Shown in pieces: positions 12,307-63,615 of a stretch of 64,000 nucleotides of DNA. Source of the stretch: a bacterium (GTDB lineage: Bacteria; Bacteroidota; Ignavibacteria; Kapaibacteriales; UBA2268); NCBI GenBank assembly GCA_024711295.1, contig JANJTB010000005.1:1-64000 (forward strand), read 5' to 3'. The translations under genes were made by a program, and so were the position numbers. Each line of letters opens with the position of its first letter. Positions within the stretch are counted from its first letter, which is position 1. The notes beneath the pieces were generated by a model that was not told the origin of the DNA, made no database searches, and was given only the letters and a program-made list of their open reading frames with translations.

Positions 12307-12376
12307 TTTTGTAAAATATTAATTCGGTTTTCTGTTGCATTACATTCAAAATCAAAATATACTTATTAATTCCGAA

Positions 12377-13180
12377 ATGAAAATTGATGTTGACTCAAGT
12401 TCACATTCATTAGTCTTTCGTAGAAAATATAAAATTTCTGACCCTAAATTCAGCATAATAGTACCTGTTTATCAGGAAGAAAAAATTATTGAATCTCATC
12501 TAAAGCTATTTAGCGAAGATTTGAAAGAAAAGTATAATTTCGAACTAATAGTCAGTGATGGTGGCAGCACTGATAACACTGTAAGTATAGCACAGCATTA
12601 TGCTGATATTGTTGTCATACATAACAATTCTTCGAGGCAAACAATATCTCAAGGGCGCAACAGAGGAGCAGATTATGCTTCGGGGGAGGTTCTATGTTTT
12701 TTGAATGTTGATTCATTCCCTGCAGATTTAATTGATTTTTTAAATATTTTAAAGGATTTTACATATCAAAATGGTGTGTACAACTCCATTGGTGCTTTGG
12801 CAAGTTACGTTAGCGGTTTCCCCGAAGAAGTAATTTTGAAGGATAAAATATTCTATACAATACACAACAATTACGTGCATTTGCTGAATATCATCGGACT
12901 TGGAATGGGTAGGGGTGAGTGTCAGATAGTCAGGAAAGAGATTTTTAATAGAGTAAACGGATACAATGACAATATTGCAGCAGGCGAGGACTTTGATTTA
13001 TTCAGAAGAATATCAAAAATTGCAAAGATAAAATTTGACAGGAATTTGCATGTATATGAGTCACCGCGTAGATTCAGAAAGTATGGTTATATCAAAACGA
13101 TTTTCTTTTGGCTTATGAACTCCCTAACAGTATGGTGGTTTGGCAAATCCGTTTCTAAGGAGTGGGAAGCTGTTAGGTGA
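12377..13180 (+). CDS. Family 2 glycosyltransferase
   Basis: 267 residues from ATG 12377; the frame is open from TTG 12335, with no ribosome site for either. GT-A fold features: FSIIVPVYQEEKIIESHL, LIVSDGGSTDNTVSIAQHY (DGGS nucleotide-binding), RNRGADYASGEVLCFLNVDSFP (DXS-type metal site), and NGYNDNIAAGEDFDLFRRI (the catalytic ED region). A hydrophobic C-terminal segment (IKTIFFWLMNSLTVWWFGKSVS) may anchor it to the inner membrane. Acceptor unknown; envelope polysaccharide or glycolipid synthesis is likely. It lies 70 bases after aacS, so it may be expressed separately. Confidence 0.9.
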   Translation: MKIDVDSSSHSLVFRRKYKISDPKFSIIVPVYQEEKIIESHLKLFSEDLKEKYNFELIVSDGGSTDNTVSIAQHYADIVVIHNNSSRQTISQGRNRGADYASGEVLCFLNVDSFPADLIDFLNILKDFTYQNGVYNSIGALASYVSGFPEEVILKDKIFYTIHNNYVHLLNIIGLGMGRGECQIVRKEIFNRVNGYNDNIAAGEDFDLFRRISKIAKIKFDRNLHVYESPRRFRKYGYIKTIFFWLMNSLTVWWFGKSVSKEWEAVR

Positions 13181-16089: not shown

Positions 16090-16120
16090 GCCCGATACTA
16101 TTCAGTATCGGGCTTTTTTT
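16090..16120 (+). terminator. Terminator of lpdA
   Basis: A perfect 10-bp stem GCCCGATACT (16090-16099) / AGTATCGGGC (16104-16113) with a 4-base loop and seven T (16114-16120), 25 bases after the lpdA stop. Confidence 0.95.
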
Positions 16121-16323
16121 CTTTCACTAATGTTGTGCAACTAATCTATGGCTAGTGTGTATTTGTGTTAAGAATAAATTAATTTTATTATCTGATTTGT
16201 GCGAAAATTTGTATATTTGAAATTCGGGTAAAGTTGATTTATTAAGATGTGTGATTATCAATCAGATAAAAGGAATGTTATGATTTTTTTCTCCAATTTG
16301 TGCACTTATTAAGAAATACATTA

Positions 16324-17106
16324 ATGATAATGCTTCAAACCTTAAATTTGATTGAAAAGCTACTCGAAAATTCAGAAGTTGCCTCTTTAACTGAGCTCGA
16401 AAACATGGAATTAATGAGCCGCTATGATACTAAATATATAATTAGTGTCAATCAGTTGGATTCTATTCTAGAAAAATTATTGGTAAAATACAAAGTATTG
16501 GAAATAAATAATCAAAAGCTATTTACTTATAATAACCATTATTTCGACACCGACGATAATTTATTCTACACTCAACATCACAATGGTAAAGCAAGCCGCT
16601 ACAAAATACGTTTCCGAAAATACCTTGATTCCGATTTATGCTTTTTCGAAATAAAACATAAATCAAATAATCTATTGACCAGCAAACGTAGACTTAAAGT
16701 AGAGAGTTCCACCGACAATATTTTTGGTGAAGCAGGCAATTTACTTACTAAAACTCTTGGATTGCATCCTGAAGATTTGAGTGGGAAATTAGATGTTGAA
16801 TATAATAGAATTACACTGTTAAATACAGGAATTTCCGAGAAAATTACTATTGATTTAAATATTAGATTCACTAGTAATTTAAATGAAGCCAGTCTGGGAG
16901 ATATTGTTCTGATAGAGGTAAAGCAAAAGCAACCTGATAACAAATCTTACTCGAAAGAAATTTTAAAAAGTATGAATATACATCCAATTTCCGGATTTAG
17001 TAAATACTGTATGGGTATGGTATATACCGAAAGTGTAATTAAATATAACAAATTCAAAAGAAAGCTGCTTTTAATTAATAAAATCAAAAAGGCGCAAGAT
17101 GGATAA
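16324..17106 (+). CDS. VTC domain (polyphosphate polymerase-like) protein
   Basis: 260 residues from ATG 16324 (ATG 16330 is also possible; TTG 16300 is unlikely). Triphosphate-tunnel-metalloenzyme fold of the VTC type, as in the yeast vacuolar transporter chaperone. Seen in order: MELMSRYDTKYII (Arg33, Lys37), YNNHYFDTDDNLFY, KASRYKIRFRKY (Arg96, Arg98), CFFEIKHKS (Glu109, Lys111), TSKRRLK, LDVEYNRITL, ITIDLNIRF, IVLIEVKQ (Glu/Lys) and SGFSKYCMGM. These basic and acidic residues line the tunnel in known family members. Cytosolic, with no signal peptide. In Vtc4 the domain makes polyphosphate from ATP; here the polymer or acceptor is not known. It overlaps the DUF4956 gene by 8 bases, so the two are translationally coupled, and it heads the surface cluster running to 23927. 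Confidence 0.88.
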   Translation: MIMLQTLNLIEKLLENSEVASLTELENMELMSRYDTKYIISVNQLDSILEKLLVKYKVLEINNQKLFTYNNHYFDTDDNLFYTQHHNGKASRYKIRFRKYLDSDLCFFEIKHKSNNLLTSKRRLKVESSTDNIFGEAGNLLTKTLGLHPEDLSGKLDVEYNRITLLNTGISEKITIDLNIRFTSNLNEASLGDIVLIEVKQKQPDNKSYSKEILKSMNIHPISGFSKYCMGMVYTESVIKYNKFKRKLLLINKIKKAQDG

Positions 17107-17755
17107 CGCACAGTTTTTCGGATTTAACCTAATCAACTACGATAACTTCATTAATCTTTTCTTCAAACTTATAGTAAATTTTATCTTTACTTTTGCATTA
17201 ACCTATGGGGTTTATTTTCGAGTCAGACAAAACAGATCTTACCTATTTACTCTGTTTATATCAAATTTTATAGTATTTTTTGTCTGTGTTCTTCTTGTTG
17301 ATTTATCTCTTAGTCTTGGATTTGCTTTTGGAATTTTTGCAATATTTTCAATTCTAAGATTTAGGACAACTACAGTACCTATCAAGGAAATGACCTACCT
17401 TTTTATATCGCTTTCACTTGCAATAATTAATTCTTTGTATAATTCACAAATCGGTATCATAGAATTAATTTTTGCGAATATGGTCATTGTTGCAACGGCT
17501 TATACATTGGAAAAAGCTTGGGTAAAGAATGAAAATGTCAAATATTTGATTTACGAAAAAATTGAAATGGTAAAGCCAGATAATCACCACTATTTATTAG
17601 AAGATTTGAAGAAAAGAACGGGACTGAATATTCACAGATTTGAAATTGGAAAGATTGATTTTTTGAAAGATACTGCAGAGCTGAGGATTTATTATTATTC
17701 TGATGATAACAAGCATTTTGTGAGAGAGGCCTCAAATGGTGATGATGATGATTAA
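17099..17755 (+). CDS. DUF4956 membrane protein
   Basis: 218 residues with about four membrane helices: roughly 20-42 (LFFKLIVNFIFTFALTYGVYF), 48-68 (LFTLFISNFIVFFVCVLLVDL), 70-86 (LGFAFGIFAIFSILRF) and 98-135. A cytosolic C-terminal domain follows (residues 140-218). The core GIFAIFSILRFRTTTVPIKEMTYLF is the characteristic DUF4956 segment. DUF4956 genes commonly sit beside VTC-domain genes, so a membrane partner, export channel or anchor for the VTC product is a reasonable inference; no activity is proven. It starts inside the end of the VTC gene, and its Asp-rich C-terminus is encoded by the GAT repeats that also supply the start of the next gene. Confidence 0.85.
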   Translation: MDNAQFFGFNLINYDNFINLFFKLIVNFIFTFALTYGVYFRVRQNRSYLFTLFISNFIVFFVCVLLVDLSLSLGFAFGIFAIFSILRFRTTTVPIKEMTYLFISLSLAIINSLYNSQIGIIELIFANMVIVATAYTLEKAWVKNENVKYLIYEKIEMVKPDNHHYLLEDLKKRTGLNIHRFEIGKIDFLKDTAELRIYYYSDDNKHFVREASNGDDDD

Positions 17756-18431
17756 CTCATCAAAATATATGATAAATTTTCTTGTACTTTGCTTTTTGCT
17801 TGCCACTTTATTTTTGTCTTCAATTGAATCATTAGCTAAACCTACTTATCCCATCGAAGATGGGCAGGATTGGGGAAGTATGCAGTTCAAAATCAGATTA
17901 ATTGATGACCTTGATCTTGAATTAGGGCAGGAGTTAAGGTATAACCAATATGGATCAAACTTTAATCAGTCAATATCAGAATTAGGATTAGCTTATAAGT
18001 ATCAAAAATTAAAATTCTCAATTTTTTATAGGTATAGATATAATTCAGATGAACAAGATGAGCAGGATGAACTTAATTTTTCAGTAAATTACAAGCCATT
18101 TTCAAAAAAAATTATACTTGCTTACAGGAGTAGATTTCAGTTCAGATTTAGAGACAATGAAGAAAATATCAATAACTTTCGGAATAAGCTGACTTTAGGT
18201 TACAAAATATCGGACTATCTGCAGCCATACTTAGCATCAGAATTGTATTACAGGTTTATGTCAGAAGATGGTGACAGAATCTCACAGGCAAGATTCGAGG
18301 TTGGGAATAATTTTGAACTAACCAGAAATATTGATTTGGAGTTATATTTTATGAGAGAGCAGGAATATAATCGGAATAAGCCAATACATTCCAATATATT
18401 AGGTTTTAATTTATCAATTAGATTGTTATAA
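17736..18431 (+). CDS. DUF2490 family outer-membrane beta-barrel protein
   Basis: 231 residues from ATG 17736, chosen because GAGAGG ends 6 bases upstream; ATGs at 17745, 17748 and 17769 are alternatives. The signal peptide ends near SLAKP. The mature protein opens with DGQDWGSMQFKIRLIDDLDLELGQELRY, then alternating strands with Arg/Tyr-rich repeats (IFYRYRYNSDEQ, AYRSRFQFRFRDN) and ends in a Leu-Ser-Ile-Arg-Leu-Leu strand. This is the DUF2490 pattern of porin-like barrels. It overlaps DUF4956 by 20 bases, which links it to the VTC-DUF4956 unit; I infer that it gives that system an outer-membrane component. Function not established. Confidence 0.8.
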   Translation: MVMMMINSSKYMINFLVLCFLLATLFLSSIESLAKPTYPIEDGQDWGSMQFKIRLIDDLDLELGQELRYNQYGSNFNQSISELGLAYKYQKLKFSIFYRYRYNSDEQDEQDELNFSVNYKPFSKKIILAYRSRFQFRFRDNEENINNFRNKLTLGYKISDYLQPYLASELYYRFMSEDGDRISQARFEVGNNFELTRNIDLELYFMREQEYNRNKPIHSNILGFNLSIRLL

Positions 18432-18461
18432 ATTTTTCAATTATTTTCTTAGGTACCAATT

Positions 18462-20162
18462 ATGCAAGGACGTTTATTTCTTACTATAATATCTGCATGG
18501 TTGATTATAGTTAATTTCAGTATAGCCCAGCAGTGGGATGGTTACTTTTTTTATAGTCAGAAAGGTTCTTCAACTGCTTATTTGTTAGACACAAATGGTA
18601 ATGTCTTTCATCAATGGAATTTGAGTAATGCACCAAGAACAACATATTCTGCCTACTTATTGGAAGGTGGATCAATAATCAGAGCTTGTACCAATCAGGG
18701 AAATATCCTGAAAGGCGGTGGAATGACAGGTCGTATCCACAAGGCTGACTGGAATGGAAATACAATTTGGGATTATGTTTATTCATCAACTACATATTGC
18801 TTACATCATGATATTTGCCCATTACCTAACGGAAATGTATTAATGATATCTTATGATGTGAAAAGCCCCACAGATGCCACAGCAGCAGGTTGCTCTAAGA
18901 ATATTGAAATATGGTCTGAGAAGATAATTGAAGTTAAACCTACAGGTCTTAATTCCGGTGAAATTATTTGGGAGTGGAAGGTTTGGGACCACCTATGTCA
19001 GAATGTTGACCCATCAAAATCAAATTATGTTTCATCTGTTTCAGACCATCCTGAGTTAATCAATATTAATTACAAAGCAAATAAAGACTGGTTACACATG
19101 AATGGTCTGGATTACAACGAAGAACTCGACCAAATTGCATTTAGTTCGCATAATTTTAATGAGATATATGTGATTGACCATAGCACTACTATTGAGGAAG
19201 CTGCCGGACACAGTGGTGGAAAATCAGGTAAAGGAGGAGATATTCTCTATCGTTGGGGCAATCCTGGTGCATACGGACAGTCGGGTAATGCAGTTTTTAA
19301 AGTTGTTCATGATGCGCACTGGGTTCCCAATGGTTCACCAAAAGCCGGTTATTTAGTTGCTTTTAATAATAATGGTGTATCATCATCCAAATCATCAGTG
19401 GATATGATTTATCCACCCTATGATGGATTTAAATACAAAAAAATATCCGGTTCACAATTTGAACCTCTTACCTATGAATATCGGCACCCATGCAACGGTC
19501 ACTCAAGTAATGAGAGTAATTCTGTACAGTTACCAAATGGGAATATGGTTGTAAATATCTCTTTGGCAGGATTTATTTATGAGGTTGACTCCAAAGGGGC
19601 GATGATATGGTCGAGGCAATTAAAGTCAGGTGGTCCTGGGCAATCAGCTTCAACAAGCCATATCTATAAACATTCAAAATGCTACGTACAGGGTACCATT
19701 GCTCCCAAACCAAGCATATCCCTAATGGGTGATGAACTGCAATCATCATACGGCATCAAATACCAATGGTTCCTAAATGGTGAGCCCATAAATGGAGCGA
19801 CATCTGAAAATTATAAACCAACAAGAAATGGCAGATATTATGTACAGATTCATAATGAAATGGGTTGCGAATCATATTTATCTGACTATTATTTAATAAG
19901 TCATCTAACAAGCAGTGTTTTAGAAAATAGTGATGAATTATTTGTAGTTACACAGATAACTGATGGTACTTACGAAATATCATCATCGTGGCAGGATTTT
20001 CAAAATTTCAAGTATCAGGTAACTGATATTATCGGAAATGCCTTGCTTTTTGGTTCTAATGATAAGATAATCAATCTGTCAAATTATGCCACCGGAATTT
20101 ATCTTTTGTCAATAATAACTAATAATAGTATTTACACAAAAAAACTGATTGTCAATAAATAG
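18462..20162 (+). CDS. Arylsulfotransferase-like protein with T9SS sorting domain
   Basis: 566 residues. A signal peptide (ending near FSIAQQ) is followed by a beta-propeller of the ASST family (about 25-415). Typical motifs: GNVFHQWNLS, HHDICPLPNGNVLMISYD, WLHMNGLDYNEELDQIAFSS, DILYRWGNPGAYG, HDAHWVPNGSP and HPCNGHSSNESNSVQLPNGN. PAPS-independent ASSTs move sulfate from a phenolic sulfate to another phenol through a catalytic His; the conserved His residues are visible, but which is catalytic I cannot prove. An Ig/PKD-like segment follows (YQWFLNGEPINGATSENY, about 425-480), then a T9SS sorting domain (SNYATGIYLLSIITNN...KKLIVNK). The protein is therefore surface-exposed or secreted, 30 bases after DUF2490. 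Substrate unknown. Confidence 0.85.
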   Translation: MQGRLFLTIISAWLIIVNFSIAQQWDGYFFYSQKGSSTAYLLDTNGNVFHQWNLSNAPRTTYSAYLLEGGSIIRACTNQGNILKGGGMTGRIHKADWNGNTIWDYVYSSTTYCLHHDICPLPNGNVLMISYDVKSPTDATAAGCSKNIEIWSEKIIEVKPTGLNSGEIIWEWKVWDHLCQNVDPSKSNYVSSVSDHPELININYKANKDWLHMNGLDYNEELDQIAFSSHNFNEIYVIDHSTTIEEAAGHSGGKSGKGGDILYRWGNPGAYGQSGNAVFKVVHDAHWVPNGSPKAGYLVAFNNNGVSSSKSSVDMIYPPYDGFKYKKISGSQFEPLTYEYRHPCNGHSSNESNSVQLPNGNMVVNISLAGFIYEVDSKGAMIWSRQLKSGGPGQSASTSHIYKHSKCYVQGTIAPKPSISLMGDELQSSYGIKYQWFLNGEPINGATSENYKPTRNGRYYVQIHNEMGCESYLSDYYLISHLTSSVLENSDELFVVTQITDGTYEISSSWQDFQNFKYQVTDIIGNALLFGSNDKIINLSNYATGIYLLSIITNNSIYTKKLIVNK

Positions 20163-20174
20163 GTGTTGAGTAAA

Positions 20175-21170
20175 ATGAAAAATATTGTCTTGATAATTCT
20201 GGGATTATTTCTTTGTAGTGAAATAATCGAGGCAAAAAAAGTAAAATTTTCTGTAGACATGACTGGGATAGAAATCAGTCCCAATGGAGTTCATATAACT
20301 GGTGATTTTCAACTTTTGGCAGGTTATGAAGATGATTGGCTTTCTGATGCGACAAAGATGGAAAAGGAAGCTGGAAGTGATGTATATTCAGTAATAGTTG
20401 ATATTCCTGCATTTAGGAAGTATGAGTTCAAGTTTGTAAACGGTGACCAATTTTACGAAGTAGAATTTGTGCCTGTAGAATCACGGGTAGGATATGACTT
20501 CATTGACAACCGCTGGCTATATCTGGACTCACTTGATAATTCAGTATATGAACACCCACGGATTATTTTTTCGTCTAATGCCCCCGCCGGTAAGTATTTA
20601 TTAAGATTTAGTCTTGATTTCATAGATGCTTCGGAAATTAGCGAGAATGGGGTTCATTTGCTCTCTGAGTTTAATAATTATAGCATTTTGAATCAAAGAT
20701 TATTTAGTTTTGATGGGCAAATTTACGAGATTATATCTTATGTAGGCACCGGAACCTACAAGTACAAATTTATGAATGGGAAAACAAGTGAAACTGAAGA
20801 ATCTCTACCATCGGAGTGTGCTGTTGACGGTTACAGAACAGTTGAAGTAGCTGACGACCTTGTGCTGGATGCTGTATGTTTTGGCGAGTGCTATGATTGC
20901 TTTACTTCATCAGTAATTGATCATAATGTTAAATTATACGATTGTTTCCCTAATCCTGCTTTGAATATGATAAACATTGAGTTACCGTACATCTCAAATT
21001 ATCAAATTTATATTACTGATTTAACCGGTACTTTGATAAGCGAAAGGGAAATTATTAATAGTGACATTATCACCGAAAGTGTTGGTAGTCTGTTGTCCGG
21101 TTATTACTTAATAAAAATATTCAATAAAATTACCCGGCAAGTTTATACTTCTAAATTTACTAAGTTATAA
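20175..21170 (+). CDS. Secreted protein with two E-set/CBM-like domains and T9SS tail
   Basis: 331 residues from ATG 20175 (a GTG at 20163 directly follows the previous stop). Signal peptide ending near IIEAKK. Two similar Ig-like modules follow: residues 22-125 (VKFSVDMTGIEISPNGVHIT ... YEFKFVNGDQFYEVEFVP) and about 138-232 (LLRFSLDFIDASEISENGVH ... YKYKFMNGKTSETEESLP). This is the pattern of starch-binding or AMPK-like E-set domains (N-G-V-H and Y-K-F-K-F-N-G). The second copy has lost aromatic residues. The C-terminal 70 residues (YDCFPNPALNMINIELP ... LLSGYYLIKIF) are a T9SS sorting domain. It may bind a surface glycan. It sits between the sulfotransferase and CotH genes. Confidence 0.75.
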   Translation: MKNIVLIILGLFLCSEIIEAKKVKFSVDMTGIEISPNGVHITGDFQLLAGYEDDWLSDATKMEKEAGSDVYSVIVDIPAFRKYEFKFVNGDQFYEVEFVPVESRVGYDFIDNRWLYLDSLDNSVYEHPRIIFSSNAPAGKYLLRFSLDFIDASEISENGVHLLSEFNNYSILNQRLFSFDGQIYEIISYVGTGTYKYKFMNGKTSETEESLPSECAVDGYRTVEVADDLVLDAVCFGECYDCFTSSVIDHNVKLYDCFPNPALNMINIELPYISNYQIYITDLTGTLISEREIINSDIITESVGSLLSGYYLIKIFNKITRQVYTSKFTKL

Positions 21171-21186
21171 AATTATACTTTAAAAA

Positions 21187-23493
21187 ATGAGAATAGCATT
21201 CATCATATTGGCATTAATAATTCTAATGACTGTTTCATCGGCATCAGATAGCTTTTTTGATGATGGTAAGGTGCAGAAAATTGAACTGTTTTTCTCATTT
21301 GAAAATTGGGATTATCGCTTGGATACTGCAAAACTCGGGTATGAAACATATATTCCTGCTGATAGCATAATTATAAATGGATATTTGCTTGATAGTGTAG
21401 GTGTTCGCTACAAAGGAAATAGCTCTTATGACTCTACATTCAGAAAAAATCCATTCAACATTTCACTCGATGAATATAAAAACCATATTTATCAAGGTAT
21501 AAAAACTATAAAATTAGCTAATTTTTATCAAGACCCGGCAATGATTCGTGAAATTCTGGCTTACAGGATAGCAGCAGACTATATGGATTGCCCAAGAGCA
21601 AACTTTGTAGAGCTTTATATCAATGGTACTTACCATGGTCTTTACGCAAATACCGAAACAATCAACAATTCATTTTGTGCAGATAGGTTTGCTTCTTCAT
21701 CAAATACTTTTATCAGCTGTTCCCCTGTTAATAAGCCAACACCGATCAACAAAAGTAGCCTTAGATATTTAGCCGAAAAAGACTCAACTGCCTATTACAA
21801 TGCTTATGAGTTAAAGTCAGACTTCGGATGGAATGACTTAATGAACTTATGTGACACAATCAGCAATCATAAGAGCTTTGCTCAAAGTATAATAGATATG
21901 GATAGAATTATCTGGATGCTGGCTTTTAATAATGCAATAGTAAATTTAGACAGTTATTCGGGTGTTTTTGCTCAAAATTATTATTTGTATAAAGATGCAA
22001 CAGGTCGGTATAATCCTATTATCTGGGATATGAATATGTCTTTCGGTGGTTTCCCTTTTTTGGGCAGTGGGAATTCGAGTATGAGTTCATTATCTGTTGC
22101 TGAAATGAAAAACATGCCATTATTTCTTCATCCAAGTGATAATAACTGGCCCCTACACAAAATTATAACCGAAGACAGTTCTCTGAGGAAGATTTATTTA
22201 TCACATTTAAGATGTATTGTAAATGATTGGTTTTACGAAGGTAAGATCATTAATAAAGCAATGCAATACAGGGATTTAATCAAAGACTATGTTCTAATTG
22301 ATGAGAATAAATTTTTCTCAAATGATGATTTTACTAATTCTCTCTCAGAAGATATTTCAGTAGGAGCATATAATGTTCCGGGAATTCAGAATTTGATTAA
22401 AGGCAGATTAGACTTTTTTAATTCGACACCTGAATTCAAATATAACCCACCCATAATTTCGGATGTTTATGTAAGCAATAATAATCCTGAAATTGGCTCA
22501 AAATTGAATGTGCAAGCTCGTGTTGAAAATGTTGATCCCGACCGAGTTCATTTTAAATATAGAAAGAGCAAAATAGGGAATTTTGAGCCATTACAAATGA
22601 ATGATGCAGGACTTTCAGGTGATGAAGTTGCAAATGATGGTATTTATGGTTTGCAAATAACCATTGATTCTGATGAACTTCATTATTACATCTTTGCAGA
22701 AAATAATTTGGCAGTTACGTTTATGCCTCAACAGGCTGAATTCAGCTATTTCACTATAAGATCCGATAATAATACTATAAACTTGGACGATATTGTGATA
22801 AATGAATTTATGGCTAAGAATAAAAGTGGTATGGTAAATGAATATGGCAAGTATGAGGATTGGATTGAGTTGCATAATACTTCTACGAAAGATCTAAATT
22901 TGTCAGGTTCTTACTTAACTGATGATGAAACTAAACTTAGTAAATATAAATTTCCTGATGGAACAGTAATCAGATCTGGTGAATATTTAGTCTTGTGGGC
23001 TGATGAATCAGAAAGCACTGATAAATTTTTACATGCTAACTTCAAGCTTTCTGCATCTGGTGAATATATTATTCTGAGTAATTCAAATGGATTGATTATT
23101 GATAGTATTAAGTATCCTGAGCAGTATGATAATAAATCTATGGGAAGATGCAGTGATTTTACAAAGGAACTGTATTATTTTGAAAAACCAACATTTGCTT
23201 ACGAAAATTCTTGTAATTCGATAATTTTGAATAGTTATGAAATGTCAATATATCCGAATCCGACAGACGATTTATTGTTAATCCATTTCAAACCTTCAAC
23301 CGGTAGAGATAACCCGATAGTTATTACGAAAGAAGATGTTATCATTTATGATTTATTGGGTATGCAAATAGGGAATTTTACTTTTAATTTTCACAAAGAT
23401 GATAGAAAAGTAGAAATTGGAATTTCGAATTTAGCTATTGGGGTATATTTTGTAAAAATAGGCAATCATATTATGAAGTTTATAAAAACTTGA
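21187..23493 (+). CDS. CotH kinase family protein with lamin-tail and T9SS domains
   Basis: 768 residues, four parts. Signal peptide (cut near SSAS). CotH domain, about 25-420: VGVRYKGNSSYDSTFRKNPF (family GNS motif), IKLANFYQDPAMIREILAY, FVELYINGTYHGLYANTETI and NPIIWDMNMSFGG, the metal-binding Asp-x-Asn region of the kinase fold. E-set domain, about 425-520 (PPIISDVYVSNNNPEIGSKL). Lamin tail domain, about 533-660 (INEFMAKNKSG, YEDWIELHNTS, LSGSYLTDDET). T9SS sorting domain, about 690-768 (YPNPTDDLLLIHF ... IGVYFVKI). Bacterial CotH is an atypical protein kinase of the spore coat, so surface phosphorylation is plausible. Substrate unknown. 16 bases after the previous gene. Confidence 0.9.
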   Translation: MRIAFIILALIILMTVSSASDSFFDDGKVQKIELFFSFENWDYRLDTAKLGYETYIPADSIIINGYLLDSVGVRYKGNSSYDSTFRKNPFNISLDEYKNHIYQGIKTIKLANFYQDPAMIREILAYRIAADYMDCPRANFVELYINGTYHGLYANTETINNSFCADRFASSSNTFISCSPVNKPTPINKSSLRYLAEKDSTAYYNAYELKSDFGWNDLMNLCDTISNHKSFAQSIIDMDRIIWMLAFNNAIVNLDSYSGVFAQNYYLYKDATGRYNPIIWDMNMSFGGFPFLGSGNSSMSSLSVAEMKNMPLFLHPSDNNWPLHKIITEDSSLRKIYLSHLRCIVNDWFYEGKIINKAMQYRDLIKDYVLIDENKFFSNDDFTNSLSEDISVGAYNVPGIQNLIKGRLDFFNSTPEFKYNPPIISDVYVSNNNPEIGSKLNVQARVENVDPDRVHFKYRKSKIGNFEPLQMNDAGLSGDEVANDGIYGLQITIDSDELHYYIFAENNLAVTFMPQQAEFSYFTIRSDNNTINLDDIVINEFMAKNKSGMVNEYGKYEDWIELHNTSTKDLNLSGSYLTDDETKLSKYKFPDGTVIRSGEYLVLWADESESTDKFLHANFKLSASGEYIILSNSNGLIIDSIKYPEQYDNKSMGRCSDFTKELYYFEKPTFAYENSCNSIILNSYEMSIYPNPTDDLLLIHFKPSTGRDNPIVITKEDVIIYDLLGMQIGNFTFNFHKDDRKVEIGISNLAIGVYFVKIGNHIMKFIKT

Positions 23494-23504
23494 TTTAATC
23501 AAAA

Positions 23505-23927
23505 ATGTGTAAAATAAAACTATACCTAGACGTTGATGGAGTAATTCTTACCAAGAGAAATACGCGTGCTGCAGATAATTTATATGATTTCTTAAGTTTC
23601 ATTGTTGGCAACTTCGATTGTTATTGGCTGACAACTCACTGTAAAGGTGATAATAGAGGGTTACTAAATTATATATCAAAATTTGTTGATTCTGATGTTT
23701 TAGACCTTCTATCAAAAGTTAAGGTCACAGATTGGATGACTCTCAAGACTGAGGCGATTGACTGCAATAGTAGTTTTTTGTGGTTGGATGATGCACCATT
23801 ACTTCATGAAATTGAATATTTGAAAAGAAAATCTCTATTAGAGAGATTATATATAGTTAATCTCAATAGAAATAATGAGCTACTGAATATAATTAATTTA
23901 CTAAAGACTGAATTAACAATTCTGTGA
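23505..23927 (+). CDS. Small HAD-like protein
   Basis: 140 residues. LYLDVDGVILTK (6-17) is HAD motif I with the nucleophile Asp, CYWLTTHCKGD gives a motif II Thr, the Lys may be in TLKTEAI, and SFLWLDDAP supplies the motif IV Asp pair. There is no cap domain, and the motifs resemble small HAD phosphatases/nucleotidases. It begins 11 bases after the CotH gene and is cytosolic, so it may belong to the surface cluster as a late gene. Substrate unknown. Confidence 0.65.
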   Translation: MCKIKLYLDVDGVILTKRNTRAADNLYDFLSFIVGNFDCYWLTTHCKGDNRGLLNYISKFVDSDVLDLLSKVKVTDWMTLKTEAIDCNSSFLWLDDAPLLHEIEYLKRKSLLERLYIVNLNRNNELLNIINLLKTELTIL

Positions 23928-57150: not shown

Positions 57151-60100
57151 ATGAAGAAATTGATTCTTCTCAGTATTGTCCTATTATCATTGTTGGTAGC
57201 TCCGCTTAGTGAAGTATTCTCACAAGCTAGGCTCATCAACTACCAAGGTAACATCCTTAACGATAAGGGTGCACCTTACGAAGGTCCGGTTCAGATAACT
57301 TTCGAGTTATATACTGCTGAATTCGGCGGCACACAAGTTTGGAGTGAAATCCAAAATGTAACATTGAATACTGGTTATTTCAATGTTTACTTGGGTTCAG
57401 TATCTCCTTTTGCATCTAACTTTAACTTTAACCGTGAATTATGGTTGCAAGTTACTGTAGGTAAAGGTGCTCCTTATCAAAGAACCAGATTATCAATGGT
57501 TCCTTACTCAGGTTATTCAGATAGATCTGCTGTTGCAGGTTTCGCTGAAGATATTCCGGACGGCTCTGTAACTTTAGCTAAATTAGCTGACGAAGTTAAG
57601 ACTGCCGGTGGTGACTTACAAGGATTTTATCCAAATCCTACTTTAAGACCAGGTGCTATTCTTGAAAATATTCCTGACGGTTCTATTACTCAAGAAAAAT
57701 TAAGCCCTAACGTAACTACAAGACCTAGCGGTCCTGCTAGCGGTGATTTGACTGGTTTCTATCCAGATCCGTTAATCGCTGCCGGTGCTGTTAAAACTGA
57801 CCGTCTTGCTGATGGTGCAGTTACTAACGTTAAAATTGCTGACTTTACTATTCAATACAACAAGCTTCAGAATGCTAACGGTCCTATCGGTACTATCCTT
57901 GGTTGGGATGGAACTAAATGGATTGAAACAAACGTTCCTGCTTGGGAAAAAGGTAGAATCAAAGCTATTGTTGCCGGTGACGGTGCTTATGTAACTAACG
58001 TTGCTGATGGCGAAAACTTCTTAACTACTACTGTTGGTATCGCTGACAATGGCGTTACTACTGCAAAAATTGCTAACGATGCAGTTACTTATGCTAAATT
58101 GCAAAATGCTGCTGGCGCTCCTGGTACAATTCTCGGATGGGATGGTACAAACTGGATTGAAACTACAGTTCCTGCATGGGAAGCTGATGCTGTTATCGGT
58201 AATGAAGTTCTTAATGCTACTCCTAATCGTGGTTTAGTAAGAGCTGGTGCCGGTACTGCTGCTAGCCCATACACTTTAGGTATTGCTGTTGATGGCGTAA
58301 TCACTGATATGATTGCTAACCAAGCTGTTACTTTAAACAAACTTGTTAATGGTGCACAACTTGGCCACATGATTTGGTGGGATGCTGTAACTAACGCTTG
58401 GAAATTAACAGGTGGCGCTGCTGCTGCTGATAACCAAGTTTTACGTTGGGTTGATAATGGTGTTACTCGTCAGCCAGTATGGTCAAACGACGATGCTATT
58501 ATTGGTAATGAAATCACTGACGTTGTTGCTGGTGGCGGTCTTCAAAGATTAGGTGCCGGTACAACTGCAAGTCCTTACACTGTTGGCGTTGCTCCTGCAG
58601 GTATTGTTACTTCAATGATTGCTGACGATGCAGTTACTTATGACAAATTACAAAATGCTGCCGGTCCAATCGGTACTATCTTAGGATGGAACGGTGGACA
58701 TTGGGTAGAAACAAATGTTGCTGCTTGGGAAAAAGGTAAAGTAATGGCTGTAACTGCTGGTGCAGGTACTACTGTTACAAATACTACTGATGCTGAAGGC
58801 TTTATTTCAGCTGAAGTTGGTATTGCTGATGGCGGCGTAACTAACACTATGTTAGCTGACGGTGCTGTTTCTTTAAGCAAATTAGCTCCAGGTACACAAA
58901 TCGGTCAGATTATGTGGTGGGATCAAGCTGCTAACCAATGGAGATTCTCTACTGGTGCTGCTCCTACTCAAGATCAGGTTATTAAATGGGTTGACGCTGG
59001 TGGTACTTTAACTCCACGTTGGGCTCCAGATGATATGACTATTCCTTTTGCTAAAACTATTACTGAAAATGCTCAAACTTTATTCTCATTAGAAAACAAT
59101 GGTAACAGCGATGTTATGAGCCTTACTACTACTGGTAAAGGCGACGGTCTTGTTATTACTGTTCCTGATGATTTAGTTGGTGGCGGTCATGCTCTACATG
59201 TTAATGGCGGTGGATTAAATCAACCTTCATTAGTTGTAAACAGAACTTCACAATATGGCTTACCTACTGGTGCTGCTACTATTAACGCTACTGTAAACAC
59301 TTTAGATGCTGAAACTACTGGTTTGTTAGTTAATACTCTTATCAATGATGATGGTAATAACAACTATGATGTAGATGGTATCCGTGGTAATGTTGTTGTT
59401 AACAATGGTGTTAACACTGCTTTATATACTGGTGTTTGGGGTGATGTAGAAGCTAACACAGGTACTGCAGTTGGTGTATGGGGCGATGCAGGTGGCGTTA
59501 GCACTGGTGCTAATGTTGGTGTACTCGCTGATGCTGAAAACGGTAACCAAAACATCGGTGTATTTGCCGGTGCAACTACTAATTCAGTTAACTATATTAA
59601 TGGTTTAGGCGCAAACTTCAGCGCTGGTGTTGTTGCTACTAATGGTAGTGCAACTGCTAATGATTATGGTGTATATTCAACAGTAAGCGGTAATGCTACT
59701 GGTTCATACTTCGAAGCTGGTGCTGGTTCATCAGTTGTTGGTATTAACGAAAGTGCAAACAATCCTTCAGTATGGGCATACAATACTTTAACTGGTCCAG
59801 CTTTATGGGCAATTGGTAACAATCCTGCAACTAACGGTTTTGCTGTTGGTAACTCAGTTGGTACTGTTTACAATACTGCTGGTGGTCGTGCTTTATATGT
59901 AGAAGGTGGATCTGCTAATGATGAAAATGGTGGTTTACCATTCTTATTAGATCCTGCTAACAATGATGATGCTGCTTTAATCGTAGCTAACCCTAACGCT
60001 GCTTCTATGGGCGGTGGTGCTGCATTTGCTACAGCTATCAAAACTTATGGTGATATTTGGGCTAACTCAACAATCGGTGCAAGCCAAATCGTTGGTTTAG

Positions 60101-63100
60101 ATAAAGTTATCGTTGGTAACTTCTTAATCCCAGGTATGTTTATCGAAATTCTTCCTCCAGCTGCTCCTGGTGCTCCATTAGTAATTGACGGCGACGTTGA
60201 TATTACTGGTAACTTAGAAGTAGAAGACATCATGGCTGATGATATCACTGCTGATGTAATCACTGCTAACACTTTAAACGCTGCTTTAGGTACTTTCGAT
60301 AACTTACAAGTTAACATTAATGCTAATGTTGATGGTCACACTACTTTAAATACTTTAGCTACTTCAGGTAATGCTACAGTTGGTGGTACATTCGGTGTAA
60401 CCGGTGCTACAACTTTAGGCAATACTTTAACAGTTGCCGGTGCAACTCAAGTTAACAATACTTTAGGTGTAACTGGTGCTACAACTTTAGGCAACACTTT
60501 AACAGTTGCTGGTGCATCAACTCTTAACGGTGCAACTCAAGTTAACAATACTTTAGGTGTAACTGGTGCTACAACTTTAGCTAACACTTTAGCAGTTGCC
60601 GGTGCAACTACTATGGGATCAACTTTAGATGTTGCAAATAATGTTGTATTAAACTCTGCTGCTGGTATGCAATCAACAACTGTTGACAATTTAATTGCTA
60701 ACGGTAATGCAACTATCGCAGGTACTTTAAACGCTGGTGCTACTACTTTAGCTAGCTTAGTTGTTACTGGTACTTCAAACTTACAAGGTGCTGCTACTTT
60801 AGGCAATACTTTGACAGTTGCTGGTGCTACTACATTAAACGGTGCTACTCAAATCAACAACACATTAGGTGTAACTGGTGCTACAACTTTAGGTAATAAC
60901 TTAACAGTTGCCGGTACTACTAACCTTAATGGTCCAACTAACGTTAATAACAATTTATTAGTAACTGGTACAGCTCAGGTTAACGGTGCTACAACTTTAG
61001 GTAACACTTTAACAGTTGCTGGCAACACTACTCTTAATGCAAACCTTGCTGTAGTTGGTAACTATACTTCAGCTGCAGGTAATATTACTTTAACTAACGG
61101 TACTATCAATGCTGAAAATGCTGATTTTGATAATACTTTAAATGTTGATGGTAATACTACTTTAGGTGGTACTTTAACAGTAACCGGTGCTACTACATTA
61201 AACAACACTCTTGCAGTTGCTGGTAATGCTAACTTCAACGGTGCTAGTGTAACTACAAGTGCTGCAACAGCATTGAATTTAGGTAATGAATTATTTACTA
61301 ACGGTTCAGCTGGTATTGCAAACAATGCAATGTTAGTTTCACGTGGTCCTGGTTTGTCACCTACTTGGACAAATGTTATTGACCAATTAACTGTAAATGG
61401 CTTACTTACTACTGAAGATTTATTAGTAAATGATGATGCTACTATCACTGGCGACTTAACAGTTAACGGCGATGATGTATTTATCAATGCTGACGTAACT
61501 ATGGTTGGTACTTTTGATTTAACTGGTTCTATGATTGCTGATGACTTGACTATACTTAACAGCTCATCACTTAACGGCACAACTGCTGTAAGTGGTACTT
61601 TCGGTGTAACTGGTCCTTCAACTTTCACTGGTACAGTTGGTATCACTGGTAATACTACAGTTACAGGTACAGTTGGTATCACTGGTAACACAACTGTTAC
61701 TGGAGCTACTCAATTGAACGGTACTTTAGGCGTAACTGGTAATACTACTTTAAATGCTAACTTACAGGTTGATGGTACTTCAGATTTACGTGGTACAATC
61801 TTTAATACTGAATTAGGTGGCGGTAATGAAATTAACATTATTGACAATACTAACATCACTGGCAACTTAACAGTAACTGGTGGTCCTGGTCAAGGTGTTA
61901 TTTCAGGTAAAGAATTGCAAATTGCACAAAATGCTACAATTCAACAAAACTTAACAGTTAACCAAAATGCTACAATTAACCAAAACTTTACAGTTGCTGG
62001 TCATACAAGCATCAATACATTAGACGTTGCAGGTAATATCATTAATCCAGTAATTGGTCAGCCAATTCAATTATTTGATGATGTTCAGGTAACAGGTAGC
62101 CTTAATGTAACAGGTAGCTTAGTTGTTTTAGGTGATATCACTGCTACTAACTTAAATGCTACTAACAACGTAAATGCAGGTAACGATGTAAATGCTATTA
62201 ATAATGTTAATGCCGGAAATAACTTAAACGTTGGCAACAACGCTAATGTTATTGGTAACTATAACTCATTAAATGGCAACATTACTTTGACTAACGGTAC
62301 TATTAATGCTGAAAATGCAACTATCGACAACAACTTAGCAGTAACTAACAATGCTACTGTTGGTGGTACTTTAGGCGTAACTGGTGCTACAACTTTAGGT
62401 AACACTTTAACAGTTGCCGGTGCAACTCAAGTTAACAACACATTAGGTGTAACTGGTGCAACTACATTAGGTAACACTTTAACAGTTGCCGGTGCTACTG
62501 TTGTTAACAATACTTTCAATGCTACTGGTAACACTACTTTAGGTGCAGACCTTGCAGTTGCAAACAATGCTACTGTTGGTGGTACTCTTGGTGTAACAGG
62601 TGCAATCACTGGTGCTTCATTGACTACAGTTGGTAATGTTACAGCTGGTGGCGATGTTGCTGGTGTTAATGGCGTATTCTCAGGTAACGTTTCAGGTGTT
62701 AACGGAACATTCAGTGGTGCAATCACTGGTGCTTCATTGACTACAACTGGTAACATCACTGCTGGTGGCGTTATCAACGGTCAATTAGTTAACAGCTTAA
62801 CTAACGGTGCTGGTATCGCTGCTTTCACTTACAACAACACTGCAGGTGCAACTGTTGCTATCGATAACAATGCTGTTACTTCAGCTATGATTGCTGATGG
62901 TACTATTATGGATGTAGATGTTAATGCAGCTGCAGCTATTGCCGGTACTAAAATCAATCCTAACTTTGGTGCACAAAACGTTGTTACAACAGGTTCAATT
63001 ACTGGTAATACTTTAGTTTCTACAACTTCTGTAACTGCTGGTACTACAGTAACTGCTACTGGTGATGTTACTTCAACTAACGGTAATGTTGTTGCTACTC

Positions 63101-63615
63101 TTGGTGACTTAAACGCTCCTGCTGGTGTTATTAACACTGGTAATGTTGGTGGCTCAAACATTTTAGCTGGTAACTTACAAGTTGGTGGTACTTCAACTTT
63201 CAACAATACAGTTACAATCTCTGGTGCTGCTTCTGACTTAGGTGTTGGTAGAGACCTTGGTGTTACTAGAGATATCGCTGCTGGTAGAGATTTATCAGTT
63301 GCAAGAAATGTAACAGTTGGAGAAGATCTTACTGTAGCTCAACAAACAACTTTACTTCCTTATACTCATGTAACAACTGCTAATCCAGAAGATTTAACAG
63401 CTGCTACTGTAGGTCAAGCATACTCATTCTTGATTTACCAAAGCGTTAATCCTATTGGTGCAGGTACTTACCCAAGTGGTACTGATGGAAGTATCTTGTA
63501 TGTTTACAACAATAGTGGTGCTGCTCTTACATTTGGTGTTCACGCTATACCTAATGGTCAAGTATGGAAATTTATCTATATTAGTGCTGCTGGTGGTTGG
63601 GTATTAGTTCAATAA
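57151..63615 (+). CDS. Giant hyper-repetitive surface protein
   Basis: 2154 residues, the longest gene here. Signal peptide (cut near EVFSQ), then a conserved N-terminal domain (LINYQGNILNDKGAPYEGPV ... YFNVYLGS, about 28-115). Repeats follow: about 130-650 several blocks with DGSVTLAKLADE, GDLQGFYPNPTL/GDLTGFYPDPL and GTILGWDGTKWIE; about 650-1000 Gly/Asn-rich beta repeats; about 1065-1850 dozens of 11-13-residue units TLTVAGATTLNG / GVTGATTLGN; then a Gly/Asn-rich region and a final domain ending AGGWVLVQ. Such solenoid repeats fit an adhesin or tail-fibre-like stalk. Codons are strikingly biased to GGT, GCT, ACT, AAC and TTA, unlike its neighbours, which suggests high expression or a different origin. 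AGGAG precedes the ATG. The absence of a clear T9SS tail leaves its export route open. Confidence 0.85.
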   Translation: MKKLILLSIVLLSLLVAPLSEVFSQARLINYQGNILNDKGAPYEGPVQITFELYTAEFGGTQVWSEIQNVTLNTGYFNVYLGSVSPFASNFNFNRELWLQVTVGKGAPYQRTRLSMVPYSGYSDRSAVAGFAEDIPDGSVTLAKLADEVKTAGGDLQGFYPNPTLRPGAILENIPDGSITQEKLSPNVTTRPSGPASGDLTGFYPDPLIAAGAVKTDRLADGAVTNVKIADFTIQYNKLQNANGPIGTILGWDGTKWIETNVPAWEKGRIKAIVAGDGAYVTNVADGENFLTTTVGIADNGVTTAKIANDAVTYAKLQNAAGAPGTILGWDGTNWIETTVPAWEADAVIGNEVLNATPNRGLVRAGAGTAASPYTLGIAVDGVITDMIANQAVTLNKLVNGAQLGHMIWWDAVTNAWKLTGGAAAADNQVLRWVDNGVTRQPVWSNDDAIIGNEITDVVAGGGLQRLGAGTTASPYTVGVAPAGIVTSMIADDAVTYDKLQNAAGPIGTILGWNGGHWVETNVAAWEKGKVMAVTAGAGTTVTNTTDAEGFISAEVGIADGGVTNTMLADGAVSLSKLAPGTQIGQIMWWDQAANQWRFSTGAAPTQDQVIKWVDAGGTLTPRWAPDDMTIPFAKTITENAQTLFSLENNGNSDVMSLTTTGKGDGLVITVPDDLVGGGHALHVNGGGLNQPSLVVNRTSQYGLPTGAATINATVNTLDAETTGLLVNTLINDDGNNNYDVDGIRGNVVVNNGVNTALYTGVWGDVEANTGTAVGVWGDAGGVSTGANVGVLADAENGNQNIGVFAGATTNSVNYINGLGANFSAGVVATNGSATANDYGVYSTVSGNATGSYFEAGAGSSVVGINESANNPSVWAYNTLTGPALWAIGNNPATNGFAVGNSVGTVYNTAGGRALYVEGGSANDENGGLPFLLDPANNDDAALIVANPNAASMGGGAAFATAIKTYGDIWANSTIGASQIVGLDKVIVGNFLIPGMFIEILPPAAPGAPLVIDGDVDITGNLEVEDIMADDITADVITANTLNAALGTFDNLQVNINANVDGHTTLNTLATSGNATVGGTFGVTGATTLGNTLTVAGATQVNNTLGVTGATTLGNTLTVAGASTLNGATQVNNTLGVTGATTLANTLAVAGATTMGSTLDVANNVVLNSAAGMQSTTVDNLIANGNATIAGTLNAGATTLASLVVTGTSNLQGAATLGNTLTVAGATTLNGATQINNTLGVTGATTLGNNLTVAGTTNLNGPTNVNNNLLVTGTAQVNGATTLGNTLTVAGNTTLNANLAVVGNYTSAAGNITLTNGTINAENADFDNTLNVDGNTTLGGTLTVTGATTLNNTLAVAGNANFNGASVTTSAATALNLGNELFTNGSAGIANNAMLVSRGPGLSPTWTNVIDQLTVNGLLTTEDLLVNDDATITGDLTVNGDDVFINADVTMVGTFDLTGSMIADDLTILNSSSLNGTTAVSGTFGVTGPSTFTGTVGITGNTTVTGTVGITGNTTVTGATQLNGTLGVTGNTTLNANLQVDGTSDLRGTIFNTELGGGNEINIIDNTNITGNLTVTGGPGQGVISGKELQIAQNATIQQNLTVNQNATINQNFTVAGHTSINTLDVAGNIINPVIGQPIQLFDDVQVTGSLNVTGSLVVLGDITATNLNATNNVNAGNDVNAINNVNAGNNLNVGNNANVIGNYNSLNGNITLTNGTINAENATIDNNLAVTNNATVGGTLGVTGATTLGNTLTVAGATQVNNTLGVTGATTLGNTLTVAGATVVNNTFNATGNTTLGADLAVANNATVGGTLGVTGAITGASLTTVGNVTAGGDVAGVNGVFSGNVSGVNGTFSGAITGASLTTTGNITAGGVINGQLVNSLTNGAGIAAFTYNNTAGATVAIDNNAVTSAMIADGTIMDVDVNAAAAIAGTKINPNFGAQNVVTTGSITGNTLVSTTSVTAGTTVTATGDVTSTNGNVVATLGDLNAPAGVINTGNVGGSNILAGNLQVGGTSTFNNTVTISGAASDLGVGRDLGVTRDIAAGRDLSVARNVTVGEDLTVAQQTTLLPYTHVTTANPEDLTAATVGQAYSFLIYQSVNPIGAGTYPSGTDGSILYVYNNSGAALTFGVHAIPNGQVWKFIYISAAGGWVLVQ
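60439..60580 (+). repeat. Exact 52-base tandem DNA repeat in the giant gene
   Basis: Bases 60439-60490 recur exactly at 60529-60580, 90 bases apart, inside the array of GVTGATTLGNTLTVAGA units. Similar copies lie near 60864-60900, 62376-62420 and 62440-62480. DNA identity this high within a protein repeat suggests recent duplication or gene conversion. Confidence 0.8.

Follow-up and report, generated by a model that had tools for sequence, protein, structure and literature searches.

What brings a polyphosphate-polymerase-type enzyme, an inner-membrane protein, an outer-membrane barrel and three secreted proteins, one of them of the CotH kinase fold, into a single run of bacterial genes? The question is posed by seven tightly packed plus-strand open reading frames (ORFs) in contig JANJTB010000005.1 of a Bacteroidota bacterium of the Kapaibacteriales (GCA_024711295.1); the first 64,000 nucleotides of that contig, the whole stretch analysed, are referred to here as the window. 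ORF calling bears out the head-to-tail arrangement, spacing and overlaps described in an earlier sequence-only reading, and scans of the window proteins against Pfam and NCBIfam, with curated cut-offs applied, confirm the families named there for the first six genes: VTC, DUF4956, DUF2490, an arylsulfotransferase-like protein (ASST), an X25 protein and CotH. The cluster is two modules, a core of VTC-DUF4956-DUF2490 and a surface unit of ASST-X25-CotH. Genes for VTC, DUF4956-type and CotH proteins have stood together in print since 2010, with no function demonstrated in the passages available (PMC2879425, PMC7112168). What is known is VTC-DUF4956-CotH in Gram-positives; what is new is a diderm version with envelope-passage parts and a surface trio. 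Those parts allow a specific proposal, that cytosolic polyphosphate may leave the cell by a dedicated route and be used at its surface. Our preferred reading, held at a little under an even chance, is that polyphosphate is made and carried across both membranes in one coupled process, and that the surface enzymes act outside. The analysis shows the families, conserved residues, gene order and co-occurrence between genomes; from these we infer what the product is, which way it travels and that its path is functionally connected with the surface enzymes.

A core module widespread in Bacteroidota

The VTC-DUF4956-DUF2490 module is widespread in Bacteroidota. VTC was found in 21 of 60 searched genomes, the window's own included. 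Around DUF4956 in fetched loci, partners were counted on the same strand within 1.5 kb (VTC), 2.5 kb (DUF2490, adaptor or porin) or 6 kb (all others). By these limits, 19 of the 20 VTC loci fetched besides the window hold DUF4956; all 19 have VTC as its neighbour, and 17 have DUF2490 close by. L032 has VTC without DUF4956. A survey of 296 genomes of the phylum, again counting the window's own, gave 73 with DUF4956 and 47 with VTC, and all 47 also have DUF4956. At 50 of 54 VTC places in these genomes DUF4956 lies within 600 nucleotides on the same strand, and at 53 within 5 kb. Called VTC-DUF4956 pairs overlap or lie no more than 30 nucleotides apart in 87 of 112 cases, although earliest starts were used and overlaps may be overstated.

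The pairing extends across subfamilies and beyond the phylum. The 80 DUF4956 places in the phylum comprise a strong group of 20 (E<1e-44) and a weak group of 60. Sixteen newly fetched loci of the strong subfamily yielded VTC in 14, DUF2490 in 10, CotH in four and ASST in one, and 18 fetched loci of the weak subfamily yielded VTC in 11 and CotH in eight. Three of 14 named controls carry VTC, and the same three carry DUF4956 (Bacteroides ihuae, C. glutamicum and M. acetivorans). A scan of named genomes kept 80 loci of 528 relatives, nearly all Bacteroidales and one of them B. ihuae again, with VTC near DUF4956 in 76 and DUF2490 in 74. Outside the phylum, DUF4956 occurs in 17 plasmid records, with the VTC profile near in all eight fetched. 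Twelve stretches in viral contigs fit the DUF4956 pattern, none of which encoded a relative.

Other neighbours of the core were seen in single loci or small sets. In L028, a T9SS-tailed (type IX secretion system) Porphyromonas-type peptidyl-arginine deiminase gene (447 to 2735) stands immediately before VTC. Three Paludibacteraceae loci (L106, L107, L126) encode a protein of about 590-625 aa after DUF2490; the L106 copy consists of DUF3413 and a sulfatase domain, and the other two are assigned by BLAST kinship. In L057 and L058, DUF4956 is followed by a 341 aa gene and then a purple-acid-phosphatase-like gene (by Pfam on L057), with no VTC profile match near. The 'CotH' label once attached to the 341 aa gene came from a loose profile and was rejected: a later profile misses it, and the L058 copy is without a Pfam match. 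What looked like a fusion of VTC with DUF4956 in L085 extends across a stretch of N and was discounted.

From the predicted polymerase to the envelope

The first gene (16324 to 17106, plus strand, with an alternative longer GTG start possible at 16300) encodes a VTC-domain protein of the triphosphate-tunnel, polyphosphate-polymerase type. VTC is the sole domain that Pfam finds in the 268 aa protein (5.6e-30; 105.1 bits against a cut-off of 23), with no SPX domain above cut-off. An alignment profile of 24 chosen sequences matches yeast Vtc4 (PDB 3g3q) at 1.8e-12, and this match required the alignment profile, the single sequence giving chance hits against the PDB. The alignment has 18 invariant columns. 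R96, R98 and E198 (counted from the start at 16324), invariant in 24 of 24, align with Vtc4 R264, R266 and E426, whose triple replacement inactivates the yeast VTC complex (PMC9911596). Two residues after E198 lies the invariant K200, likewise a lysine in Vtc4 in this alignment. By spacing, its position appears to correspond to Glu-171 of AtTTM3, a hydrolase (PMC4641920), and it is the sole position mapped of the four hydrolase glutamates. In the first step of the preferred reading, this cytosolic enzyme would polymerise polyphosphate from ATP. The host genome also encodes an ordinary PPK, so VTC would not be the sole route to polyphosphate there.

DUF4956 (17099 to 17755, plus strand; Pfam 7.6e-45) overlaps VTC by 8 bases. 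Its structural model (pLDDT 86.9) has five predicted helices and a C-terminal alpha/beta domain, and R87 and R89 are invariant in 44 aligned sequences (44 chosen of 53). Foldseek returned no solved relative at E<0.001; the best PDB match has E 0.38, and the other best PDB match is weak as well (Z 6.1, rmsd 6.3). VIA rows for the protein mostly span residues 141-211. A likeness to MgtC/SapB was considered and is not claimed, the Foldseek and VIA rows being weak. In yeast, the VTC channel is lined with basic residues required for translocation (PMC9911596). The preferred reading would have DUF4956 carry the growing polyanion over the inner membrane, in place of the yeast VTC membrane helices. 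The bacterial set shares with the yeast Vtc1/Vtc3/Vtc4 complex the catalytic domain (by profile), the counterparts of R264, R266 and E426, and a membrane partner with conserved arginine. It differs in that one gene encodes the catalytic part and another the membrane part, the 268 aa protein showed no SPX domain, no clear match links DUF4956 to the yeast membrane domain, and an outer-membrane barrel is added.

That barrel is DUF2490 (17736 to 18431, plus strand; Pfam 9.2e-16), which overlaps DUF4956 by 20 bases. The family is listed as a putative porin (TCDB 1.B.81) whose function is described as unestablished in the passage available (PMC4827864). In the model (pLDDT 92.9), an N-terminal helix resembling a signal peptide precedes a beta-barrel of eleven strand elements, and all Foldseek rows at E<0.001 are barrels, including VDAC, Tom40, BAM/EspP, OmpF, PcoB and intimin; the porin NanC and an outer-membrane secretin for polysaccharide (4y25) also belong to these rows, at TM ~0.5. 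R68, R131, R149 and R186 are arginine in 40, 39, 40 and 37 of 41 sequences, and all four probably face the lumen, a side deduced from strand alternation (they lie on the non-hydrophobic strand face) and not from coordinates. A barrel with such an arginine-lined lumen could be the way over the outer membrane. The same DUF4956-DUF2490 pair occurs in B. thetaiotaomicron as BT3498-BT3499, listed in an iron-response table, and the passage available proposes no function for it (PMC10434189).

DUF2490, taken in the sequence-only reading to be the partner added in this lineage, turns out not to be the only outer-membrane or periplasmic partner. An HlyD-like adaptor profile, seeded from L075, matches near DUF4956 in 14 of the 18 fetched weak-subfamily loci; a Porin_O_P match comes from L060, one weak-subfamily locus being counted with a protein of this type, and in Pseudoalteromonas a lamin-tail protein, DUF4956 and an annotated porin lie together. 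An early assignment of the adaptor-like protein, about 355 aa, as a porin gave way, on profile kinship and some Pfam matches, to an HlyD-type adaptor. In L066 and L068-L079, a protein of one profile family and ~330-368 aa adjoins DUF4956, and often also VTC. L073 has an OEP-like protein too, below cut-off (18.5 against 22 bits).

These partners bear on a competing account, in which VTC-DUF4956 is solely an inner-membrane store or signalling unit for phosphate or polyphosphate, phosphate compounds enter through the barrel and the surface enzymes help to capture nutrients. Porin_O_P, by its Pfam name, is a phosphate-selective porin family, and an arginine-rich lumen is silent on the direction an anion would take. 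Moreover, some neighbours outside Bacteroidota are phosphate-related: a phytase-like protein (adjacent to DUF4956-VTC or one gene removed in three Alphaproteobacteria), an inorganic phosphate transporter, a Phn importer and an acid phosphatase. The first three also count in favour of the preferred reading. The adaptors point the other way, since HlyD-type adaptors are part of export systems in known cases, and the tie to a T9SS-tailed CotH, described below, is hard to square with storage. We consider storage or uptake unlikely, if still worth serious attention. As for precedent, the gonococcal pseudo-capsule is PPK-dependent polyphosphate outside a diderm cell, the location also proposed here (PMC10237660); the words 'export' and 'exporter' do not occur in the part of that text available.

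CotH and the surface unit

CotH is tied to the core module. It occurs in 107 of the 296 phylum genomes: in 46 of 47 with VTC against 61 of 249 without (Fisher p ~7e-23), and in 66 of 73 with DUF4956 against 41 of 223 without (p ~3e-29), neither value being corrected for ancestry. The two are also close. CotH lies within 4 kb of DUF4956 on the same strand at no fewer than 16 of 80 places, against 0.31 expected, a count drawn up by eye with two rows taken from a separate CotH search. The tie is looser in the order of Bacteroides, where 99 genomes divide into 40 with VTC and CotH, 11 with VTC alone, 18 with CotH alone and 30 with neither (p 4e-5), so that CotH is present in 40 of 51 VTC genomes against 18 of 48 others. 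In that order CotH stands on the same strand and no more than 4 kb away at 10 or more of 55 VTC places, again by eye, and 2 of the 80 named loci have it near on the same strand. The control genomes with CotH are B. subtilis, C. glutamicum and M. acetivorans, and Deinococcus taeanensis has the gene order CotH-VTC-DUF4956.

The sequence-only reading had drawn a Gram-positive parallel for this neighbourhood, and the literature agrees. The accessory genes cotH-PPP-DUF4956-DUF4832 of Gram-positive Pel loci place CotH next to a polyphosphate polymerase of the VTC type and DUF4956 (PMC7112168), and C. perfringens NELoc-2 carries VTC and CotH genes (PMC2879425), with genes annotated as tubulin/FtsZ-like that, by place and size, are taken to be DUF4956. 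The Pel authors put forward phosphorylation by CotH as a possible means of regulating Pel synthesis (PMC7112168). Compared with these sets, the window is diderm and has DUF2490, ASST, X25 and T9SS tails, and no pel genes were found among the flanking genes scanned. The names 'CotH kinase family' and 'polyphosphate polymerase domain-containing' also appear together in another paper (PMC11677781). In the open-licence literature searched, we found no description of the diderm core, its alternative partners or the ASST-X25-CotH unit.

In the window, the CotH gene (21187 to 23493, plus strand) encodes a kinase-fold domain (4.5e-43; 148.4 bits against a cut-off of 23.8), a lamin tail (8.2e-20) and a T9SS tail, which predict a surface-bound protein. 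Its kinase-domain profile matches the spore coat kinase CotH (5jd9) at E=3.6e-47, and D255 and D281 are invariant in 16 of 16 chosen sequences; we take them to be the counterparts of the catalytic pair, D228/D251 in B. subtilis. The T9SS and lamin tails are additions relative to the spore coat enzyme. ASST (18462 to 20162, plus strand; PF05935 5.1e-23, 82.1 bits against 24.2) has H116, H212, N214, R264 and H283 invariant in 8 of 8 sequences, residues that may correspond to the His/Asn/Arg catalytic set of E. coli AssT. AssT itself is not among the PDB matches of ASST, the sole sulfotransferase there being 9kf6/9kf4, and the single sequence gave chance hits alone. X25 (20163 to 21170, plus strand; Pfam X25 6.4e-07), an E-set protein of the pullulanase-type carbohydrate-binding kind, had no PDB hits. 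Its ORF begins with a GTG directly after the ASST stop, and a later in-frame ATG would give roughly the gap described in the sequence-only reading. All three T9SS tails are above the NCBIfam cut-off, the weakest being that of ASST (26.3 against 23), and the host genome encodes the T9SS component SprA_N (2.9e-41). The earlier assignment of the cluster to cytosol, inner membrane, outer membrane and T9SS-served surface is supported.

ASST-X25-CotH is a rarer, more lineage-specific surface unit than the core. The window ASST matches in 37 of 123 genomes of the order (E<=1e-30), and the closest seven rows, at 344 bits or more, come from six genomes, the window's own included; the next row scores 321. 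CotH lies in the ASST gene run at all six of these loci. By eye, none of 16 lower-scoring ASST rows, from genomes with known CotH places, shares a contig with CotH, and nine of the 16 come from genomes without it. ASST and CotH stand within 10 kb on the same strand in six cases (window included), against 0.30 expected. X25 has an ORF of its own in the window and G012, whereas in G046, G043 and G051 it belongs to the ASST polypeptide; G050 has an FGE-sulfatase-type protein in its place. On a tree of 26 CotH sequences, the five-member clade that includes the window's has support 99/99, and every member has an ASST partner. The ASST label requires three changes, so there may have been more than one gain, or loss, of the pairing. 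In 36 of the 80 named loci (L083-L162), a Cthe_2159-type carbohydrate-binding profile, an identity for which three members are named by Pfam, matches a gene or two after DUF2490; several of these genes follow a short ORF matching the T9SS-tail profile.

The seven genes, then, are not one conserved unit. The core accompanies the trio at three of the six closest-ASST loci (window, G012 and G046), and the last ORF was not found in the other fetched loci. It could be argued that the trio is a separate unit that merely chances to lie downstream and that the system is VTC-DUF4956-DUF2490 alone: the stretches that surround the trio in G043, G050 and G051 showed no VTC, G051 has no VTC match at all, and CotH is near in just 3 of the 19 relatives' loci (0.12 expected). 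The closeness of CotH to DUF4956 across the phylum speaks against chance, as does G210, from another phylum branch, where ASST lies in a gene run with CotH-VTC-DUF4956, and we regard this account as very unlikely. Two observations, the link with CotH and the repeated grouping of ASST, X25 and CotH, make a joint function of core and surface enzymes likely. The shared pathway suggested in the sequence-only reading is supported for VTC, DUF4956 and DUF2490, with a tie to CotH, and is not supported for the seven genes as one unit.

What might the surface enzymes do? Under the preferred reading, the T9SS-secreted ASST-like, X25 and CotH proteins would either bind a surface macromolecule or transfer groups to it at the site where the polymer of phosphate comes out. 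Alternatively, the genes might make or decorate a phosphate-bearing surface polysaccharide, with VTC supplying phosphate polymer or running another triphosphate reaction, CotH phosphorylating, ASST sulfating and X25 binding the glycan. X25 itself, the Cthe_2159-type profile, the pel exopolysaccharide genes beside the Gram-positive relatives (PMC7112168) and the invariant His, Asn and Arg positions of ASST all suit such a scheme, as does a family 2 glycosyltransferase gene three genes upstream (12335-13180). An opposite-strand gene, an oxidoreductase gene and a hairpin separate that gene from the cluster, however, Pfam finds no glycosyltransferase among the seven, and Cthe_2159 and ASST vary by lineage and are not constant parts; we think this scheme rather unlikely. 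Of the phosphate- or sulfate-bearing polymer first proposed, phosphate gains from the residue and lumen-charge evidence, while no result supports sulfate.

A bolder form of the preferred reading, which we would call a long shot, is a two-membrane polyphosphate secretion machine feeding the surface CotH kinase with an energy-rich phosphate donor, so that proteins or glycans are phosphorylated without ATP and ASST is a second ATP-independent surface group transferase. Use of polyphosphate by CotH, like a sulfated polymer, is conjecture. The broader proposal, a dedicated route out of the cell with use of polyphosphate at the surface, would if true account for the association of VTC with CotH, provide bacteria with an exporter of polyphosphate and point to a way in which a secreted kinase might act where ATP is absent.

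Several observations weigh against polyphosphate passage and use at the surface. Activity, product and transport are, for these bacterial proteins, predictions; Asp35 of VTC, at what may be the position of a hydrolase glutamate, aligns with a Thr in Vtc4; and 26 of the 73 DUF4956 genomes are without VTC. DUF4956 is without a convincing solved relative, so a translocator role would be by analogy. The top VDAC rows for DUF2490 have TM ~0.2, and these together with the NanC and secretin rows support a barrel, not a substrate. Only 5 of 11 adaptor-type proteins (L069, L071, L073, L075 and L076) have an HlyD- or lipoyl-type Pfam match above cut-off, the other six having none. The profiles for DUF2490, adaptor and porin all failed to match near DUF4956 in 1 of 19 relatives, 6 of 16 strong-subfamily, 3 of 18 weak-subfamily and 6 of 80 named loci, some of the fetched stretches being short. 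The co-occurrence counts ignore shared ancestry, 11 of the 51 VTC genomes in the order of Bacteroides are without CotH, and the control B. ihuae has VTC and DUF4956 and no CotH.

Borders and flanks of the cluster

The cluster is bordered upstream by a terminator-like hairpin of ten pairs with a T run (16090 to 16113, plus strand), between the oxidoreductase gene and the cluster start; three terminator-like sites were seen in the region, against 3.6 expected in shuffles. At the other end, membership of the small ORF (23505 to 23927, plus strand) is doubtful. Its HAD-type match (E=0.08) is below cut-off, and as a query it matched itself alone among the ORFs of the fetched loci, so it is not supported as a conserved part.

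Six flanking genes were scanned: upstream an AMP-binding enzyme, the family 2 glycosyltransferase, a CoA-transferase and a pyridine nucleotide-disulphide oxidoreductase, the last two being nearest, and downstream isocitrate dehydrogenase and a signal peptidase. No further sulfur gene is among them. Far downstream in the window, an ORF of 2154 aa (57151-63615) starts with a signal-like segment and matches nothing in Pfam above cut-off, and a small ORF with a T9SS-tail profile match adjoins it.

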